From Elainella sp. Prado103 (lineage in GTDB: Bacteria > Cyanobacteriota > Cyanobacteriia > Elainellales > Elainellaceae), in contig JALOOM010000045.1 in NCBI GenBank assembly GCA_025454395.1, positions 1-36,265 on the forward strand: DNA of 36,265 nt, given 5' to 3'. Under the pieces are notes generated by a model. That model made no database searches. It saw only the letters and a list, made by a program, of their open reading frames with translations, and was not told the origin of the DNA. This document shows, piece by piece, positions 8,296-26,754 of the stretch. The translations under genes were made by a program, and so were the position numbers. Each line of letters starts with the position of its first letter. The stretch's first letter is position 1.

Positions 8296-8394
8296 GGTCA
8301 ATGGTTCAAGGTGACGCAGATTTCTGGGCATTCTGGCGCTGAAAAAATTTCCTTTTTTGAGAGTCAAGTTAGGATTCTCCCAGCAAGTTCTACT

Positions 8395-8399
8395 GGAGG
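8395..8399 (+). promoter_or_regulatory. Ribosome binding site of the OmpA-like gene
   Basis: GGAGG lies seven bases before the ATG at 8407 and decides that start over the in-frame GTG at 8311. Confidence 0.75.
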
Positions 8400-8406
8400 T
8401 GCGTTC

Positions 8407-9315
8407 ATGACTAAGTCACCCACTACGATCAACCCGACTACCCCAGAAAAACCGCAAACTGCTCCAACTTGGCGGTGGGGAGCCGCTTTCTGGACATTGA
8501 TTTTTCGCTTATTACTGTTGGGGATCGGTGGCAGTTTAGCCGCATCCGTTGGGATCGCTGCTGCTCATATTTATCCAGCTCGGTTGCAGGAGCCTCCCTT
8601 CGCAGAAAAGCTGATTCAAACCACCCGATCGTTGTGGCGAGGAGGTGGAATTCCAGGCGCTCAACCCCCCGCTGCAAATCCTTCGCCCTTGGCTCCCGCA
8701 TCCCCCCCCCCAGCTTCACCGGATCTGACCAGCGGTTTACCGGCTCAAGAGCGTCAACAGTTGCAAACAGAGCTAACCCAACTACAAGCCGAGTTACAGA
8801 CCCTCACGAGCCAATCTAGCGAGCCGCTGGCCGATCGGGTAGCCGAGCTTCAGAAGCGGATTCAGTCGATTCAGGCAAAACTAGGCACCGCGAGCCCAGG
8901 CTTTGTGGATTCAACTGAAACGGGCAACTCCACACAAACTTTTGTGGCACCCGCCCAGAGCAATGGCGATCGATTGTTGGTTACCCTACCCAGTGATGCC
9001 CTATTCGATCCCGATCAAACCACCCTCCGCTCAGGAACAGAAGCGATTTTTGCCAGCATTCTGATGGATTTACAACGTTATCCCGATGCCACCATTCGGA
9101 TCGCGGGGCATACCGACAATCAAAACAGCGCCGATCGCGATCGACAACGTTCTCTAGAACAAGCCAAAGCGGTGCAACAATATCTCTCCGGTCAGTTAGG
9201 GGAATCTATCCACTGGGTTACCGTAGGCTATGGGCAACATCGCCCTCTAGCCACCAATGACTCGCCAGAAAATCAACAGCGCAATCGACGCATTGAGATT
9301 GTGATCGAACCCTAA
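8407..9315 (+). CDS. OmpA-family peptidoglycan-binding membrane protein
   Basis: The 302-aa product is an inner-membrane-anchored protein with a periplasmic OmpA-like domain, which binds the diaminopimelate of peptidoglycan and ties the envelope to the wall. There is a basic N-terminus, one hydrophobic segment (about 27-55, AAFWTLIFRLLLLGIGG onward), a Pro/Ala-rich stretch (80-110), a short coiled coil (111-160, LPAQERQQLQTELTQLQAEL and VAELQKRIQSIQAKL), and the OmpA domain (188-302). That domain includes the ligand-binding region RIAGHTDNQN (Asp237) and the closing NRRIEIVIEP. The layout resembles MotB or stand-alone OmpA proteins, but no MotA partner is next to it. An in-frame GTG at 8311 would add 32 residues without family resemblance. 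A 19-bp tandem duplication overlaps its stop codon. Confidence 0.85.
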   Translation: MTKSPTTINPTTPEKPQTAPTWRWGAAFWTLIFRLLLLGIGGSLAASVGIAAAHIYPARLQEPPFAEKLIQTTRSLWRGGGIPGAQPPAANPSPLAPASPPPASPDLTSGLPAQERQQLQTELTQLQAELQTLTSQSSEPLADRVAELQKRIQSIQAKLGTASPGFVDSTETGNSTQTFVAPAQSNGDRLLVTLPSDALFDPDQTTLRSGTEAIFASILMDLQRYPDATIRIAGHTDNQNSADRDRQRSLEQAKAVQQYLSGQLGESIHWVTVGYGQHRPLATNDSPENQQRNRRIEIVIEP

Positions 9316-9341
9316 CTATCCCATCGAACCCTAACTATCCC
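9304..9341. repeat. Tandem duplication, 19-bp unit, 2 copies, over the OmpA-like stop codon
   Basis: ATCGAACCCTAACTATCCC is repeated exactly at 9304-9322 and 9323-9341. The first copy contains the last codons and the TAA of the OmpA-like gene, so the second copy is a fossil of the gene end. Confidence 0.93.
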
Positions 9342-9363
9342 GATGTGAAATCCCGATGTGAAT
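9338..9363. repeat. Tandem duplication, 13-bp unit, 2 copies
   Basis: TCCCGATGTGAAA (9338-9350) and TCCCGATGTGAAT (9351-9363) abut and overlap the end of the 19-bp array. Confidence 0.88.
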
Positions 9364-9379
9364 TGTTCTTGAATGAGTC

Positions 9380-9412
9380 GTGGCTCCATCGTGGCTTCAT
9401 CGTGACTTCATC
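9380..9412. repeat. Tandem repeat, 11-bp unit, 3 copies
   Basis: GTGGCTCCATC, GTGGCTTCATC and GTGACTTCATC follow one another, with a partial fourth GTG. The unit is not related to the neighbouring arrays. Confidence 0.88.
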
Positions 9413-9451
9413 GTGTTCTGATTGTGACCCGGTCATTGCCCTGTTTGTTTT

Positions 9452-9471
9452 TCTTGCATTCTCTTGCATTC
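9452..9471. repeat. Tandem duplication, 10-bp unit, 2 copies
   Basis: TCTTGCATTC occurs exactly at 9452-9461 and 9462-9471, just upstream of fmt. Confidence 0.8.
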
Positions 9472-9496
9472 TACTGTTTTGATCGAGCTACCCTGC

Positions 9497-10558
9497 ATGA
9501 CCCAGCCTGTTACTCAGCCTGTTACTCAACCCGTTATCCAGCCTATTGACCGTTCCGTTCACCCGTTGAAAGTGGTTTTTCTCGGCACACCCCAGTTTGC
9601 TGTCCCTAGCTTAGAGCGGTTGGTTGATGATCCCCAGTTTGAGGTGGCAGCAGTAGTCACCCAACCTGATAAGCGGCGAGGCCGGGGCAATGAACTCTCG
9701 CCTTCACCTGTCAAAACGGTGGCAGTCGCCCATCAACTCCCAGTCTGGCAACCGCGGCGGATCAAGAAAGATTCTGAAACCCTTGAGCAGTTGCGATCGA
9801 TCGGGGCAGATTTGTTTGTGGTGGTTGCCTATGGACAAATTCTTTCGCCTGAAATCCTCGCAATGCCGCGTTTAGGCTGTGTGAACGGGCATGGGTCGAT
9901 CTTGCCCCGCTATCGAGGAGCCGCACCGATCCAGTGGTGTCTCTACCATGGCGAAACCGAAACGGGAATCACGACCATGTTGATGGATGCGGGTATGGAT
10001 ACGGGTGCAATGCTTCTGAAGTCTACTGTGGCGATCGGGCTATTCGATACAGCGGCCGATCTGGCCACCAAACTCGCTGACCTTACCGCAGATTTATTGA
10101 TCGACACCTTGCTCGGGCTAGATCAAGGCACAATTACGCCTATCCCGCAAGATGATGCACAGGCAACCTATGCCCCCCTGATTCAAAAAGCCGACTTTCA
10201 GTTGGACTGGTCTCGTTCTGCTTTGGCATTACATCATCAAATTCGGGGCTTTTATCCTCACTGTTTTACTGAGTTTCGTGGCAATGGGCTAAAAGTGATC
10301 GCCACGGTGCCTTTAGATGCGGTCGATCGCGATCTGTTGCCGCTTGACTTACAATCCACGGCTTCCGAGTGGTTAAATTGGAGGCAAAAGGGTACCGCAA
10401 GCGAGGTCGTGGGGATTCTCAAAAACCAAGGGGCGATCGTTCAAACAGGTTCTGGGTTACTGCTGTTGAAAGAAGTGCAACCTGCCGGAAAACGAGTGCA
10501 ATCCGGTTGGGATTTTGTCAACGGTGTCCGCCTACAAGTGGGTGAACGACTAGGTTAG
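9497..10558 (+). CDS. fmt: Methionyl-tRNA formyltransferase
   Basis: Fmt transfers a formyl group from 10-formyltetrahydrofolate to methionyl-initiator tRNA, which bacterial translation initiation requires. From the ATG at 9497 the protein is 353 aa. Family sequence begins at about residue 24 ([21 protein letters not shown]). Active-site residues are Asn130 and His132 in [18 protein letters not shown] and Asp168 in [11 protein letters not shown]. The C-terminal tRNA-binding domain is complete, ending [22 protein letters not shown]. Before the catalytic domain are about 23 extra residues made of TQPV tetrapeptides, encoded by a 12-bp tandem repeat. They are unlikely to matter for catalysis. 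A TTG at 9464 would lengthen the protein further and is less likely. It converges with the small minus-strand gene, with two bases between the stop codons. Confidence 0.95.
9503..9550. repeat. In-frame tandem repeat, 12-bp unit, 4 copies, in fmt
   Basis: CAGCCTGTTACT at 9503 and 9515 is followed by two diverged copies to 9550. It encodes successive TQPV-like tetrapeptides in the N-terminal extension of Fmt. Confidence 0.9.
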
Positions 10559-11026: not shown

Positions 11027-13570
11027 CTACGACCCTACAATCGATTGCCGGGCCATTTCGACGAAAATCCGTTGAGCATTAATTTCCGCTTCGGGCGATC
11101 GGGGTTGACGCTGAATGTAACGCCCATTGGGTTGGAGTTCCCAGGCATGACGATTGTCTGCTAAGAGCGTGCCCAACAGGATTTGTAGTTCTTGACTCAG
11201 ATCCGTATTTTCGATCGGCACCAAAACTTCCACTCGATGCTCAAAATTGCGCCGCATCCAATCTGCACTTCCCAAATAAACTTCCGGTTGGCCACCATTG
11301 TGAAAGTAAAGGATGCGCGAGTGTTCTAGAAACCGCCCAACAATGCTGATCACCCGAATATTGTCACTCACGCCGATCACACCTGGACGTAAACAACACA
11401 TCCCCTGCACGATCAAATCAATTTTGACTCCCTGCTGCGATGCCAGATACAGAGATCGAATCAACGTTGGATCGGTGATTGCGCCCAGTTTTGCCACCAT
11501 GCGAGCATGGATTCCTTGTTGGGCGAATTGGGCTTCTCGCTGCATGAGTTGCACTAAACGATCGCGCAAATTCACAGGTGCGACGAGCAATTTGCGATAA
11601 TTCATTTGGCGAGAATAGCCAGTTAAATAATTAAATAACTCTGAGAGATCGGATCCTAACTCACTGCAACAACTCAAGAGCCCCACATCGGCATAAAGCT
11701 TCGCAGTTCGAGGGTTGTAGTCACCAGTGCCAATATGGACATATCGTCGTAGAGACTCGCCTTCTTGCCGCACCACCAAGATGACTTTAGCGTGAGTTTT
11801 TAAACCCACCAAGCCATACACAACATGAACACCAGCTTGTTCCAATTTACGGGCCCATTGGATGTTATTTGCCTCATCAAATCGGGCTTGGAGTTCGACT
11901 AAGACGGTCACCTGTTTACCATTTTCAGCGGCTTCGACCAATGCGTTGAGAATGGCTAGATCGGCTGAAGTGCGGTAGAGGGTCATTTTAATCGTCAGCA
12001 CATTTGGATCGATCGCTGCCTGTTTGATAAACAGTTCTACCGAAGCAGAAAATGCCTCATAGGGATGATGCAGCAGAATATCGCGCCGACGAATGGCAGA
12101 AAAGATATCTTCCCGGTCTAACCGAGTAGATTCTGAGTCTGCTTCATCTGGATGCCGCAAATGGACGCGCCGTAAGGCCGGTGATACGATCGGGCTCCAG
12201 TGAGCATATTTCAATTCAGGCAGCGGCAAGGTTGATAGAAACCGCAGATCACGCAAGCGCAGCAAACCCTGGAGATGATAAACATCCGCCTCTGCTAGCT
12301 CCAGCTCTTGCATCAACAAATGGCGAATCCGCAGGGAAGCACTGGCTTCGATTTCCAGCCGCAGAGCCGTGGCTCCGGTCTGCCGTCGTCGCAGTTCTTG
12401 TTCGATCGATCGCAATAAATCTTCTGAATCTTCCAAGCCCAGTTCAGCATTGCGTGTAATCCGAAACAGGGAATGCTCGACTACTTCCATCTCCGGAAAC
12501 AGCATCGACAAATGGTGAGCGATCACCTGTTCGATCGGCACACCTGCCCAGATCACCGGATGGCGATGGGATAAAGCGGCGGGTAAAGGAATAAACCGAG
12601 GGAGCAAATTAGGCACCTTGACTCGGGCAAACCGGCTGATTCCCGTTTCTCGATCCCGCACTACTACGGCTAGATTGAGGCTGAGATTCGAGATATAAGG
12701 GAATGGATGACTTGGATCGATCGCCAGTGGCGTTAAAACTGGAAAAATTTGCGCCTCAAAGTATTGCTGTAAATACTCTTGAGTTGTTGAGGGCAGATCC
12801 CCATAGTTGAAAAGATAAATGCCTTTTGCAGTAAGTTGAGGTCGAAGAGCTTGCTCAAAGTGGCGCTGATGTTGAGCAACTAGCGGTCGCAGCCGATCGG
12901 CAATTGCTCTTAATTGTTCGTCCGGGGTACCGCGATCGGGAGAAACCTTCGGTGATCCGGAGAGTTGCTGTTTCAGAGCCGCCACCCGCACCATGAAAAA
13001 TTCATCCAAATTGGACGCGAAGATGGCCAGATATCGCAGTCGCTCCAGTAGAGGCGTGCGAGGATCAAAGGCTTCATGCAAGACCCGATTGTTAAACTCT
13101 AGCCAGCTCAGCTCACGATTGAAATAAAACTGCGGATCGCTGAGATCGATCGCGGCTGACTGGGTTGAATGTTGCGTGGTCAGTTCTGTGGCCCAATCAC
13201 TATCGCTCTCGACATAACTATTGACATGCCGATCAACACCCATATCGACATACCGATCGATACCCATATCGACATCCGTATCGACATCGCTATCGACACC
13301 GCTATGAACATGACTATCAACCTGGCTAAAGTCGGCAGGCTCTTGCAGTTCTGAGACAAATCCAGGCTGTGAACTCCCATCCCCTACCAATGATGCTTCG
13401 GCTGAGGAGGGCTGGACTGATACCGACTCGATCGCCCGATCGGTAGGTAAGGTAGGCTCAGGCGATGCATCATCAGCCAGAGCTTTAGCAGCAGGCTCTA
13501 GGGACGGTATCGAACTAGCAACAGACTTCGCGATCGGTTTTGAATTAGTAGCTTTTTTGGCTCTCGGCAT
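11027..13570 (-). CDS. ppk: Polyphosphate kinase 1
   Basis: PPK1 reversibly builds polyphosphate from ATP, a phosphate and energy store in cyanobacteria. The catalytic part starts near residue 142 (DLSDPQFYFNRELSWLEFNNRVL) and contains the N domain, head domain and two phospholipase-D-like catalytic domains. The autophosphorylated histidine is His593 (LKTHAKVILV) and the second essential histidine His750 (RFLEHSRILYF). Their spacing of 157 equals that of E. coli H435/H592. The family is usually about 690-740 aa. This protein has 847 because of a 140-residue N-terminal extension, first Ala/Ser/Pro-rich and then a run of V-D-x-x tetrapeptides (about 84-121). The extension is acidic and probably disordered. 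A later ATG just before residue 142 is not available, so the long form appears to be made. Confidence 0.95.
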   Translation of the reverse strand: MPRAKKATNSKPIAKSVASSIPSLEPAAKALADDASPEPTLPTDRAIESVSVQPSSAEASLVGDGSSQPGFVSELQEPADFSQVDSHVHSGVDSDVDTDVDMGIDRYVDMGVDRHVNSYVESDSDWATELTTQHSTQSAAIDLSDPQFYFNRELSWLEFNNRVLHEAFDPRTPLLERLRYLAIFASNLDEFFMVRVAALKQQLSGSPKVSPDRGTPDEQLRAIADRLRPLVAQHQRHFEQALRPQLTAKGIYLFNYGDLPSTTQEYLQQYFEAQIFPVLTPLAIDPSHPFPYISNLSLNLAVVVRDRETGISRFARVKVPNLLPRFIPLPAALSHRHPVIWAGVPIEQVIAHHLSMLFPEMEVVEHSLFRITRNAELGLEDSEDLLRSIEQELRRRQTGATALRLEIEASASLRIRHLLMQELELAEADVYHLQGLLRLRDLRFLSTLPLPELKYAHWSPIVSPALRRVHLRHPDEADSESTRLDREDIFSAIRRRDILLHHPYEAFSASVELFIKQAAIDPNVLTIKMTLYRTSADLAILNALVEAAENGKQVTVLVELQARFDEANNIQWARKLEQAGVHVVYGLVGLKTHAKVILVVRQEGESLRRYVHIGTGDYNPRTAKLYADVGLLSCCSELGSDLSELFNYLTGYSRQMNYRKLLVAPVNLRDRLVQLMQREAQFAQQGIHARMVAKLGAITDPTLIRSLYLASQQGVKIDLIVQGMCCLRPGVIGVSDNIRVISIVGRFLEHSRILYFHNGGQPEVYLGSADWMRRNFEHRVEVLVPIENTDLSQELQILLGTLLADNRHAWELQPNGRYIQRQPRSPEAEINAQRIFVEMARQSIVGS
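13208..13321. repeat. In-frame degenerate 12-bp repeat in ppk
   Basis: About ten degenerate copies of a 12-bp unit (plus strand, close to TATCGACATACC) encode the Val-Asp-x-x run at residues 84-121 of PPK. Copies differ at several bases, so the array is older than the near-perfect arrays elsewhere in the window. Confidence 0.85.
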
Positions 13571-18518: not shown

Positions 18519-21218
18519 ATGATCGATCCCGCCTCTGCCTCTGCTTCTTCGACCGACCCGACCCTGCCCTTACCAGATCGGCTGGTTAAACATGCCGTGC
18601 GATACACCGATCATCGATCGGTCAACTGGGACGATCTAACTCCTATGATGCGCCACTATGTGGAGCTGAAAGATCAATACCCCCATGCCTTGTTGCTGTA
18701 CCGAGTCGGGGATTTTTTCGAAACTTTCTTTCAGGATGCGATCTCCGTCTCACGAGAGCTAGAACTGGTGCTGACAGCCAAAGATGGGGGTAAAGAGGTT
18801 GGGAAGGTACCCTTGGCAGGGATTCCGCACCATGCCTTGGATCGGTATTGTGCCCTCCTGGTGGAGCGGGGCTATGCCGTCGCCATTTGCGATCAAACCG
18901 AGGATGCCTCTGAAGCGCAAGGGCGGCTGGTGCAGCGCGAAATAACGCGAGTGATTACACCGGGCACAGTGCTGGAAGAAGGCATGTTGAATGCTCGACG
19001 TAACAACTTCCTTGCTGCCGTGGTGATCGCAGGTCATCACTGGGGATTAGCCTATGCCGATATTTCAACCGGCGAGTTTTTGACGACTCAATCGACTCAG
19101 CTTGATCAACTTCATCAAGAACTGCTGCGGTTACAGCCGTCTGAAGTGCTGGTGCCAACCCATGCACCCGACTTAGGGCGATTGCTGCGACCAGGCGATC
19201 GATCCGCTCATCATCCCGATCTGCCCGACTGTTTACCCCCACAATTCTGCTATACCCTCCGCAGCCAGACTCCTTTCCTGCTCAGTGAAGCCCGTCAAAA
19301 GTTACTAGAGCAGTTTCGGGTGCGATCGTTAGAGGGCATGGGTTGCGATCATTTACCCTTGGCGGTGCGGGCAGCAGGGGGATTGCTCGACTATTTGGCA
19401 GATACCCAACGCACCCATGAAATTTTGCTGCGGCCGCTTTGCACCTACACCTTAACGGAATATTTGGTGATCGATCACCAAACTCGTCGCAATCTGGAAA
19501 TCACCCAAACTAGCCGGGATGGCACGTTCCATGGATCGCTGCTGTGGGCTCTCGATCGCACCGTCACGGCAATGGGAGGGCGAACCTTGCGTCGCTGGTT
19601 GTTGCAGCCCTTGTTGGATATCCCAGCCATTCAAGCCCGCCAAGATACAATTCAAGAACTGATCGCCCAGGGCAGTTTGCGGCAGAGCCTTCAGCAGTTA
19701 CTCAAGCAAATTTATGACATGGAGCGCTTAACCGGACGATCGGGATCGGGGACTGCCAATGCGCGAGATCTGGTGGCGCTGGCCGATTCGCTGCAACGTC
19801 TCCCGGAATTGGCTGCCCTTGTTTCTAAGGCCACCTCTCCTTACCTCACGCCGCTCCAAACTGTTGCACCGGAGTTAGAAGCATTGGGCGATCGGCTCAA
19901 GGCGCATCTGGTCGATCAGCCGCCCATCCACCTGACTGAAGGACACCTGATTCGATCGGGGGTAAATCCTCAGTTAGATGCACTGCGGCAACAAATTGAA
20001 GCCGACGAACAGTGGATCGCTAATCTGGAAACGACGGAACGACAACGAACCGGCATTGCCACATTAAAAGTAGGCTATAACAAAACTTTTGGCTATTACA
20101 TTAGCATCTCACGGGCTAAATCGAATGAGACACCTCCGGCAGGCTATGTCCGTAAGCAAACATTAACCAATGAAGAACGCTATATCACCAGCGAACTGAA
20201 AGAGAAAGAGAGTGCTTTGATGACTGCTCAAAGTGAGCTGGGTAAATTAGAATATGACATTTTTGTAGCCCTTCGATCGGAAGTCAGCCAGGATGCCGAT
20301 CAAATTCGATCGGTAGCGCAGATGATTGCAGCAGTGGATGCACTGTGCGGATTAGCAGAAATCGCTGTGTATCAGGGCTATTGCCGTCCTGAAATGGTAC
20401 CCAGTCGGGAGATTTCGATCGAACAAGGTCGCCACCCTGTTGTGGAGCAATCATTGCCCTCAGGCTTTTTTGTCCCTAACTGCACTAAATTGGGTCAACT
20501 CACCGCTGCCCCTATTCCTGATTTAATTATTCTCACTGGCCCAAATGCCAGCGGCAAAAGCTGTTATTTACGCCAAGTGGGACTCATTCAACTTTTGGCG
20601 CAGATCGGTAGTTTTGTCCCGGCTAAAACGGCGCGGTTAGGGATTTGTGATCGTATCTTCACGCGAGTAGGTGCCGTTGATGATCTGGCAACTGGACAGT
20701 CCACGTTTATGGTGGAAATGAACGAAACTGCGAATATTCTCAATCATGCAACTGCAAATTCTTTGGTGTTACTGGACGAAATTGGGCGAGGCACCGCGAC
20801 CTTCGATGGTTTATCGATCGCTTGGGCTGTAGCAGAATATTTAGCCTTGGAAATTCGAGCCCGCACAATTTTTGCGACCCATTACCACGAACTGAATGAG
20901 TTAGCGTCTATGGTGGATAATGTTGCCAATTATCAGGTCGTAGTCCAGGAATTTCCAGATCGGATTGTGTTTTTGCATCAGGTGCGCCCCGGTGGGGCCG
21001 ATCGTTCCTATGGGATTGAAGCAGGACGATTGGCGGGTTTACCTGCACCAGTGATCGACCGCGCCAAACAGGTGATGCATCAAATCGAGCAGCATTCCAA
21101 AATCGCTGTGGGATTGCGTCAGTCTAACGGATCAGGGGGAAAACCAGCCGCTGCCGATCAACCGAGGGGCAATCGCCCAGAGATGGATGCAGCTCAGCTC
21201 GACATTTTTGGAGCATAG
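18519..21218 (+). CDS. mutS: DNA mismatch repair protein MutS
   Basis: MutS binds mismatches and small loops and starts repair with MutL. The 899-aa protein is full length. The mismatch-recognition domain has the Phe-x-Glu motif in GDFFETFF (Phe66, Glu68). The core and clamp domains follow. The ATPase domain has Walker A GPNASGKS (about 674-681), Walker [17 protein letters not shown] and FATHYHEL. Walker A reads NASGKSC rather than the common NMAGKST but keeps the Gly-Lys-Ser core. A C-terminal tail follows. There are about 30 extra residues before the first domain. AGGA lies three bases before the ATG. It is the last gene of the secD-secF-Uma2-mutS run. No frame break or missing catalytic residue is seen. 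Confidence 0.96.
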
Positions 21219-26611: not shown

Positions 26612-26674
26612 AAATGCTTAGACATCAGGGCTTAGAGTTGGTCAGTTGCAATCGATGTAAAGGTTCACTCCGGT

Positions 26675-26754
26675 CATGTTCACCACAAGTCATGTTCACC
26701 ACAAGTCATGTTCACCACAAGTCATGTTCACCACAAGTCATGTTCACGCCGGCA
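26675..26754. repeat. Tandem repeat, 16-bp unit, 4 copies plus a degenerate fifth
   Basis: CATGTTCACCACAAGT occurs at 26675, 26691, 26707 and 26723 without change. At 26739 it continues as CATGTTCACGCCGGCA. Each copy includes GTTCACCAC. It lies upstream of the divergent ribbon-helix-helix gene. Confidence 0.95.

Follow-up and report, generated by a model that had tools for sequence, protein, structure and literature searches.

Five tandem arrays at the ompA-fmt junction of Elainella sp. Prado103, seen against genome-wide short duplications that probably come in part from topoisomerase I

How tandem repeats first originate from non-repetitive DNA has been described as unknown (PMC6954433). The closest described system is a laboratory point mutant of Escherichia coli, topA R168C, in which head-to-tail duplications of 2 to 19 bp arise de novo and independently of pre-existing repeats (Bachar et al., PMC6954433); in the available text of that report the authors leave the mechanism of duplication open, and the accessible part of PMC7587558 likewise gives it as not known whether the cause lies in altered supercoiling or in a disrupted catalytic cycle. 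Here, we describe five successive tandem arrays between an OmpA-like gene and fmt in the cyanobacterium Elainella sp. Prado103 (assembly GCA_025454395.1, contig JALOOM010000045.1). The arrays lie in a stretch of 36,265 nucleotides, positions 1 to 36,265 of the forward strand, referred to below as the window.

In eukaryotes, Top1 gives deletions at ribonucleotides, and Top2-linked duplications are joined by nonhomologous end joining (NHEJ). These systems resemble the one described here in that small indels result from a topoisomerase that is trapped or misdirected; they differ in the enzyme types (IB and II), in their smaller units and, for Top2, in the use of end joining. Short tandemly repeated repetitive (STRR) sequences of cyanobacteria consist of 7-bp units of a recurring family. 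They too form tandem arrays in cyanobacterial intergenic DNA, and heptamers are present at this same junction in Planktothrix and Kamptonema; however, the units in Elainella sp. Prado103 are mostly 9 to 17 bp and distinct at nearly every place, and those of the junction, at 10 to 19 bp, are not STRR heptamers. Prokaryotic satellites, as delimited in the available text of Subirana and Messeguer (PMC6749651), are alike in having units of at least 10 bp, many of the coding ones in multiples of three, but at least four repeats and internal regularity are required there and no mechanism is given; the junction arrays, with 3.5 copies at most, fall below four repeats of at least 10 bp. Satellite-like arrays number 95 per Mb here by a looser Tandem Repeats Finder (TRF) criterion, against at most 89 per Mb in Table 1 of that paper (Methanosarcina vacuolata), a rough comparison in which the criteria differ. 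Finally, most short insertions in flies and primates are tandem duplications, and short matches mark deletions and not insertions (PMC2374710). In both cases short insertions come mainly from the duplication of neighbouring sequence, whereas the available text of PMC2374710 concerns eukaryotes, with geometric length distributions and no cleavage signature.

We propose that a genome-wide process of head-to-tail duplication, mostly of 9 to 17 bp and without microhomology, gave rise to the five arrays in its ordinary course, and that at least a substantial share of these duplications probably derives from topoisomerase I (TopA). The duplications themselves, their size window, the lack of a requirement for microhomology, a strand-consistent cytosine at position -4 of both boundaries, here called the C(-4) mark, and a filter imposed by the reading frame are all observed. 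Like the duplications of E. coli topA R168C, in the accessible account of PMC6954433, those described here are head to tail, overlap in size and are independent of repeats, but they have accumulated in natural genomes over evolutionary time. Taken as tests of a topA R168C-type origin, size within 2 to 19 bp (with a difference at the short end), repeat independence and C at -4 are all found here. The C(-4) mark is the new result over the known topA R168C duplications.

The arrays of the ompA-fmt junction

The junction arrays were called with TRF (Table 1), which reproduced the five arrays of the initial annotation in both unit length and position. As had been noted there, two of them overlap, the 19-bp and 13-bp arrays having positions 9337 to 9341 in common. 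The first array copies the stop codon of the OmpA-like gene: TAA at 9313-9315 sits in the first 19-bp copy and recurs at 9332-9334 in the second. This duplication leaves the OmpA-like protein unchanged because the first stop is still in use. The last array was correctly placed inside fmt, where it continues the frame of the ATG at 9497 and adds TQPV repeats to the N-terminus. In all, 24 residues, including Met, stand ahead of the conserved KVVFLGTP.

Table 1. Features of the ompA-fmt junction (positions in the window)
Feature	Coordinates	Strand	Unit (bp)	Copies	Matches (%)	Remarks
OmpA-like gene	8311..9315	+				From the open reading frame (ORF) list; opens at GTG 8311, possible start ATG 8407; homologues upstream of fmt in relatives; name is the label of the initial annotation
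Array	9304..9341		19	2.0	100	Without microhomology; first copy holds the OmpA-like stop
Array	9337..9362		13	2.0	100	5-bp overlap with the 19-bp array
Array	9378..9415		11	3.5	92	Diverged copies
Array	9452..9472		10	2.1	100	
Array	9503..9544		12	3.5	80	In frame within fmt; TQPV repeats
fmt	9497..10558	+				Methionyl-tRNA formyltransferase, product name from the initial annotation; ATG 9497, ORF opens at TTG 9464

From the OmpA-like stop to the fmt ATG there are 181 bases, about 70 of which are extra array copies by arithmetic on the TRF output; most of the spacer is therefore not recognisably repetitive. The proposal that the spacer grew by repeated local duplication is thus supported in part, for the arrays, which are local duplications and not conserved, and so for only about 70 of its 181 bases.

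The same junction was compared among 40 loci with an OmpA match, the Elainella sp. Prado103 locus included and several places held twice. Over these loci the distance separating the OmpA stop from a fixed residue of fmt ranges from -10 to 398 bases. For 36 loci, again with our own included, the sequence was printed; the four left out had an OmpA match ending at residue 110. The initial annotation had argued that the same arrays, unchanged in distant relatives, would speak for conserved function and against recent growth. None of the other 35 printed loci (28 distinct places) carries the junction arrays, which are therefore not conserved. In Elainella saxicola, a congener whose OmpA-like protein is the most similar (60%), the OmpA stop is followed after 9 bp by an ATG in frame with fmt. 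Exact arrays of their own, with units of 14 to 15 bp, are present in four loci (Kamptonema L069, Planktothrix L057 and L099, and Lyngbya L068); these are unrelated in sequence, and some are built on heptamers. Among the nine distinct relative junctions of at least 190 bases from stop to fmt anchor, four have exact arrays and five have none, and duplication is therefore one of several routes of spacer growth.

Heptamer-type repeats were seen at the junction in L057, L069, L088, L099 and L102, which belong to Planktothrix, Kamptonema, Microseira and a cyanobacterial metagenome-assembled genome. In unrelated cyanobacteria, the ompA-fmt spacer appears to accumulate repeats of more than one kind.

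Arrays across the genome and the founding duplication

To place the junction within its genome, exact arrays, defined as two or more copies of a unit of 9 to 30 bp, were counted in 1.137 Mb of the 5.84-Mb genome (the window and 60 further stretches), with coding regions approximated as ORFs of at least 80 codons and a null expectation from three runs of an order-2 Markov model. We found 541 exact arrays, compared with 7 to 9 in each null run, and the junction arrays are thus far above chance. Intergenic DNA holds 310 of them (173 per 100 kb) and coding DNA 231 (24 per 100 kb), and a further 377 kb of the same genome yielded 179 more, with units of 9 to 24 bp. At such a density throughout the genome, the description of the junction as a special record of intergenic growth was overstated. 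Nine 250-bp intervals that start at an array contain three or more exact intergenic arrays that differ in unit, where random placement would give 4.3; of the five junction arrays just three enter this count, as two are inexact or lie in coding sequence. The junction represents the dense end of a pattern found throughout the genome. Densities in relatives vary. Genome G001, of the same genus and apparently Elainella saxicola E1, has 21 intergenic and 5.9 coding arrays per 100 kb in a 181-kb sample, and the other relatives have 0 to 215 per 100 kb of intergenic DNA, in samples mostly of 5 to 59 kb with three of 100 to 200 kb. The E. coli K-12 control had none in 100 kb, of which just 8 kb is intergenic.

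The units of intergenic arrays are chiefly 9 to 17 bp, with a steep drop at 18 bp. Exact intergenic arrays number 5 at 8 bp (null, 3.0) and 18 at 9 bp (null, 0.4), rise to 49 at 14 bp, and fall to 25 at 17 bp and 5 at 18 bp. For shorter units, observed and null counts are 752 and 546 at 4 bp, 184 and 148 at 5 bp, 46 and 37 at 6 bp, and 27 and 12 at 7 bp, and no clear excess is seen at 6 or 8 bp. Units divisible by three make up 184 of 227 coding arrays compared with 96 of 305 intergenic ones, as expected because mutation in genes is filtered by the reading frame; this bias also argues against an assembly artefact. By individual length, 18-bp units number 24 in coding and 5 in intergenic DNA, and 15-bp units 71 and 38.

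The largely intergenic position of the arrays, some of which span gene ends, could be taken to mean that they are functional regulatory repeats under selection, and units do share 10-mers about twice as often as expected (95 distant pairs, compared with 38 to 50 in shuffles). However, such sharing is still rare among 527 arrays, the junction arrays are absent from the loci of relatives, and the coding arrays keep to multiples of three as would frame-filtered mutation; we regard selection for function as extremely improbable. A dispersed repeat family was rejected on the same scarcity of units with common 10-mers, even at twice the shuffled level. Clustering, in which one array would beget others, was also set aside: arrays that differ in unit touch one another more often than expected (10 cases, compared with 2.2 expected and at most 7 in 200 random placements), with no excess at distances of more than 10 bp.

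We next consider how the first duplication arises. In classical slipped-strand mispairing, the nascent strand slips between short direct repeats that exist already, and the interval is recopied. Such repeats would leave extra matching bases in clean two-copy arrays, that is, those with no trace of a third copy alongside. Among 123 clean intergenic arrays of this genome, 0, 1 and 2 extra matching bases were found in 46, 15 and 7 cases, against 69, 35 and 13 expected without homology; the corresponding counts are 39, 22 and 3 of 77 in the other genomes, and for clean coding arrays 33, 18 and 3 of 83 in this genome and 28, 10 and 4 of 47 in the others. The class without any extra base is the commonest and the proportions lie near the no-homology expectation, which argues against classical slippage for the first duplication. 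Two observations speak for slippage: 55 of the 123 arrays have three or more extra bases, above the no-homology expectation, and many arrays have at least three copies, slippage presumably acting once two copies exist. Inspection by eye of 28 printed arrays with four or more extra bases showed many to be third copies worn by substitutions or indels, and not microhomology, with some left unexplained; non-integer copy numbers (2.3 to 2.9) were dropped as a distinct mechanism on the same grounds. Slippage also predicts no C at -4. As the source of the first copy it is therefore unlikely. The founding duplication seems to have no homology requirement, and slippage probably adds later copies.

Slippage prompted by hairpins was tried and rejected, as the stretches before duplication fold no better than random intergenic DNA (67 compared with 400, P = 0.71). 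Loss of a repair gene as the cause was likewise rejected: XseA, SbcD and MutS1 have matches in 23, 23 and 24 of 24 genomes, respectively, and all three are present in this one. The mutS1 gene lies in the window at 18519-21218 on the forward strand (match G000:C9:18636-21110, 936 bits). In G006, G011, G012, G013 and G027, the match to the MutS model is interrupted around model position 590, and in G011 around 235 as well, all within one open frame, which suggests shared insertions in these predicted proteins.

The cytosine mark at array boundaries and the case for topoisomerase I

Boundaries were examined in arrays without an extra matching base. There were 236 of these, and removal of 1 at an edge, 44 by flank similarity and 4 duplicates left 187 distinct clean two-copy arrays. 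Of the 187, 71 have a cytosine at -4 of each boundary on one and the same strand. Same-strand pairs at offsets 2, 3, 5, 6, 7, 8 and 9 number 18, 11, 17, 10, 14, 18 and 19, and flank position pairs at equal distance give a background of about 24 of 192. In the first profile, of 36 arrays of this genome, C was at -4 of the unit end in 53%; in 79 arrays of this genome it was at -4 in 32 (left flank) and 36 (unit end). If the mark belongs to one strand, its mirror image, G at +3, must be equally frequent. The 79 arrays had G at +3 in 28 and 27 cases, and 67 arrays of other genomes had it in 28 and 33, with C at -4 in 17 and 23. Folded by strand, C at -4 amounts to 101 of 268 in the other genomes (65.5 expected, P = 1e-6), or 38%, and to 39% in this genome, with all other positions from -9 to +8 at 16 to 28%.

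The mark was recovered in further sets. Fresh arrays had it on the same strand in 12 of 46 (P = 0.009). A separate set from the same genomes, with units of 12 to 20 bp and exactly one internal substitution and without overlap with the first set, had it in 34 of 84, compared with 6 to 11 at other offsets (P ~ 1e-10). Even the 44 arrays excluded by the flank filter carry it in 19 cases (other offsets, 5 to 10), as do 15 of 41 arrays of at least three copies in this genome (other offsets, 4 to 11). Both intergenic (45 of 112) and coding (26 of 80) arrays have it, and it is seen in three unit-size classes and in arrays without CGATCG nearby (68 of 181). Low-density genomes have it in 11 of 20 arrays, compared with 0 to 3 at other offsets, and other high-density genomes in 13 of 42; rate and mark are therefore separate matters. 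In contrast, arrays of 5- to 6-bp and 7- to 8-bp units, which are largely due to chance, are without the mark (90 of 617, compared with 83 to 114 at other offsets, and 17 of 148, compared with 13 to 26).

At the junction itself, both boundaries of the 19-bp array show G at +3, equivalent to a bottom-strand C at -4. Of the two placements possible for the 10-bp array, one gives a bottom-strand mark, and of the three for the exact core of the 12-bp array (9503-9528), one gives a top-strand mark. No mark was found on the 13-bp array at 9337-9362. These marks are in keeping with the genome pattern and, with a chance of about 12.5% per placement, are no proof for a single case.

The two boundaries are linked on one strand. 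The left-right association on the same strand has odds ratios of 3.5 (P = 1e-4) and 3.0 (P = 6e-4), whereas across strands it is negative (0.43, P = 0.012) or neutral (0.90, P = 0.76). This bears on an origin from staggered nicks in opposite strands, filled in and joined blunt by a Ku-type system, as in a target-site duplication or the footprint of an abortive transposition. Nicks of this kind would explain both the missing microhomology and the bounded length, but the link lies on the same strand and not across strands, the unit varies from 9 to 17 bp and is not fixed, and Ku has no match in this genome. Only one of 40 genomes searched has Ku, and it (G019) has two arrays in its 20-kb sample. 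We consider staggered nicking very unlikely. The Ku loci of G019 lie at C61:34854-36425 and C66:46632-48226, each with two Ku matches on opposite strands. In coding arrays, the mark falls on the non-template strand in 17 cases and on the template strand in 7, a skew that is suggestive only; the enzyme might act on the strand that transcription opens.

According to the available text of PMC6101483, bacterial topoisomerase I prefers to cleave where cytosine lies at -4, and topoisomerase III does not; alanine at R169 switches the preference to adenine (PMC7587558, available text). The motif RILDRLVGY, which by residue spacing covers the equivalents of R169, D172, R173 and Y177 in the accessible text of PMC7587558, has matches in 38 of 40 genomes. 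A type IA topoisomerase match was found in all 40; this genome has two type IA genes, and its one motif match is in the longer. The residue before the motif, equivalent to R168, which is next to the cytosine pocket, is R in six of six relatives with an available topA. An enzyme other than TopA with a preference for cytosine four bases 5' of its cut, for example the second type IA enzyme or an HUH-type nuclease, should also be considered, as a one-base specificity gives little by which to identify an enzyme. This is quite unlikely, however: topoisomerase III is without the preference, the E. coli topA phenotype matches independently, and we know of no other housekeeping enzyme that prefers cytosine at -4. 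Searches of the open-licence literature on tandem repeats, cyanobacteria and topoisomerase, covering titles and abstract openings of the best 2 to 20 entries each, revealed no earlier description of the C(-4) mark at the edges of natural duplications.

Both the enzyme and the steps that follow are inferred. TopA would cleave one strand at CNNN^ at the left boundary, with the 5' end retained on its tyrosine and the 3' end set free. A polymerase would then extend this 3' end by 9 to 17 nt before religation, copying the sequence downstream of the cut. TopA would accept the new 3' end best if it ended in CNNN and would join it to the held 5' end, giving a second copy on that strand, which the next replication would fix as a tandem duplication. 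C at -4 would be needed on the left for cutting and favoured on the right because the same pocket would hold the upstream strand in religation. The size window would reflect the reach of extension while the enzyme stays closed, and short loops would perhaps be removed by mismatch repair, MutS being present. Later, slippage would add copies, substitutions would wear them, and the reading frame filters arrays within genes. If a strand were cut and then rejoined to a different 3' end of its own, a same-strand footprint would be expected, and direct catalysis is therefore favoured.

Several observations weigh against an origin from TopA. At the topA R168C hotspots, known cleavage motifs were not found, according to the available text of PMC6954433, in contrast to the one-strand C(-4) boundaries described here, and the excess begins at 2 bp in that mutant but in earnest at 9 bp here. 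TopA is present in every genome, yet array density varies about tenfold, and no explanatory gene was found. In the fresh sets, with positions fixed beforehand, the marginal signal of C(-4) was weak in each set taken singly, at 30 of 100 (23.8 expected, P = 0.09) and 25 of 84 (17.7 expected, P = 0.04), and another offset was equally high (0.31 at -8, 0.30 at -9). Opposite-strand pairs at offset 4 reach a raw count of 38 of 187, compared with 12 to 24 elsewhere, because the marginals at offset 4 are raised. With 1 or 2 bases of microhomology the mark is blurred: of 64 such arrays in G000, offset 4 accounts for 28, offset 1 for 29 and offsets 2, 3 and 5 for 20 to 21, and of 46 in the other genomes, offset 4 accounts for 16, offset 1 for 20 and offset 3 for 15; with 3 to 5 bases the mark is absent (G000, 17 of 34 at offset 4; others, 13 to 31). 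Moreover, just 38% of clean arrays have the mark at both ends, about 29% above background. In the 116 clean arrays without it, C(-4) is near background (21, 28, 22 and 32 of 116), and a second process or C-independent cleavage is therefore needed.

More broadly, wild-type topoisomerase I may, through errors of cleavage, extension and religation, be a continual natural writer of new 9- to 17-bp repeats in cyanobacteria, and perhaps in bacteria generally, with a one-strand C(-4) footprint at both edges; we see the case for this wider claim as evenly balanced. If it is true, minisatellites arising de novo, in-frame peptide repeats and part of intergenic growth would share one enzymatic origin. 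If the footprint holds, the origin of repeats could be studied in any sequenced genome from the bases four positions from the edges of arrays. It would also help to choose the enzyme's own cut-and-join step over altered supercoiling for the E. coli topA mutator, and would offer an origin for some of the growth of bacterial spacers and for short in-frame peptide repeats such as TQPV at the start of this fmt.

Other arrays in the window

Alignments of relatives to the genes of the window rarely span coding arrays, and little was seen of the absence of a single array in orthologues. For the coding arrays at 668-692 and 9983-10006, the same peptide is present in the relatives shown; judged from these alignments, the two appear to be old or coincidental and not recent duplications. 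The latter, in fmt, is a 12-bp unit in 2.0 copies (91%) and encodes MDAGMDTG, common to the relatives shown. The highest-scoring array of the window, at 26673-26747, consists of a 16-bp unit in 4.7 copies that are 100% identical, and is perhaps very recent. A degenerate 12/24-bp array at 13212-13318 encodes D/V-rich repeats, in frame, near the N-terminus of an 847-residue protein that we take to resemble polyphosphate kinase.

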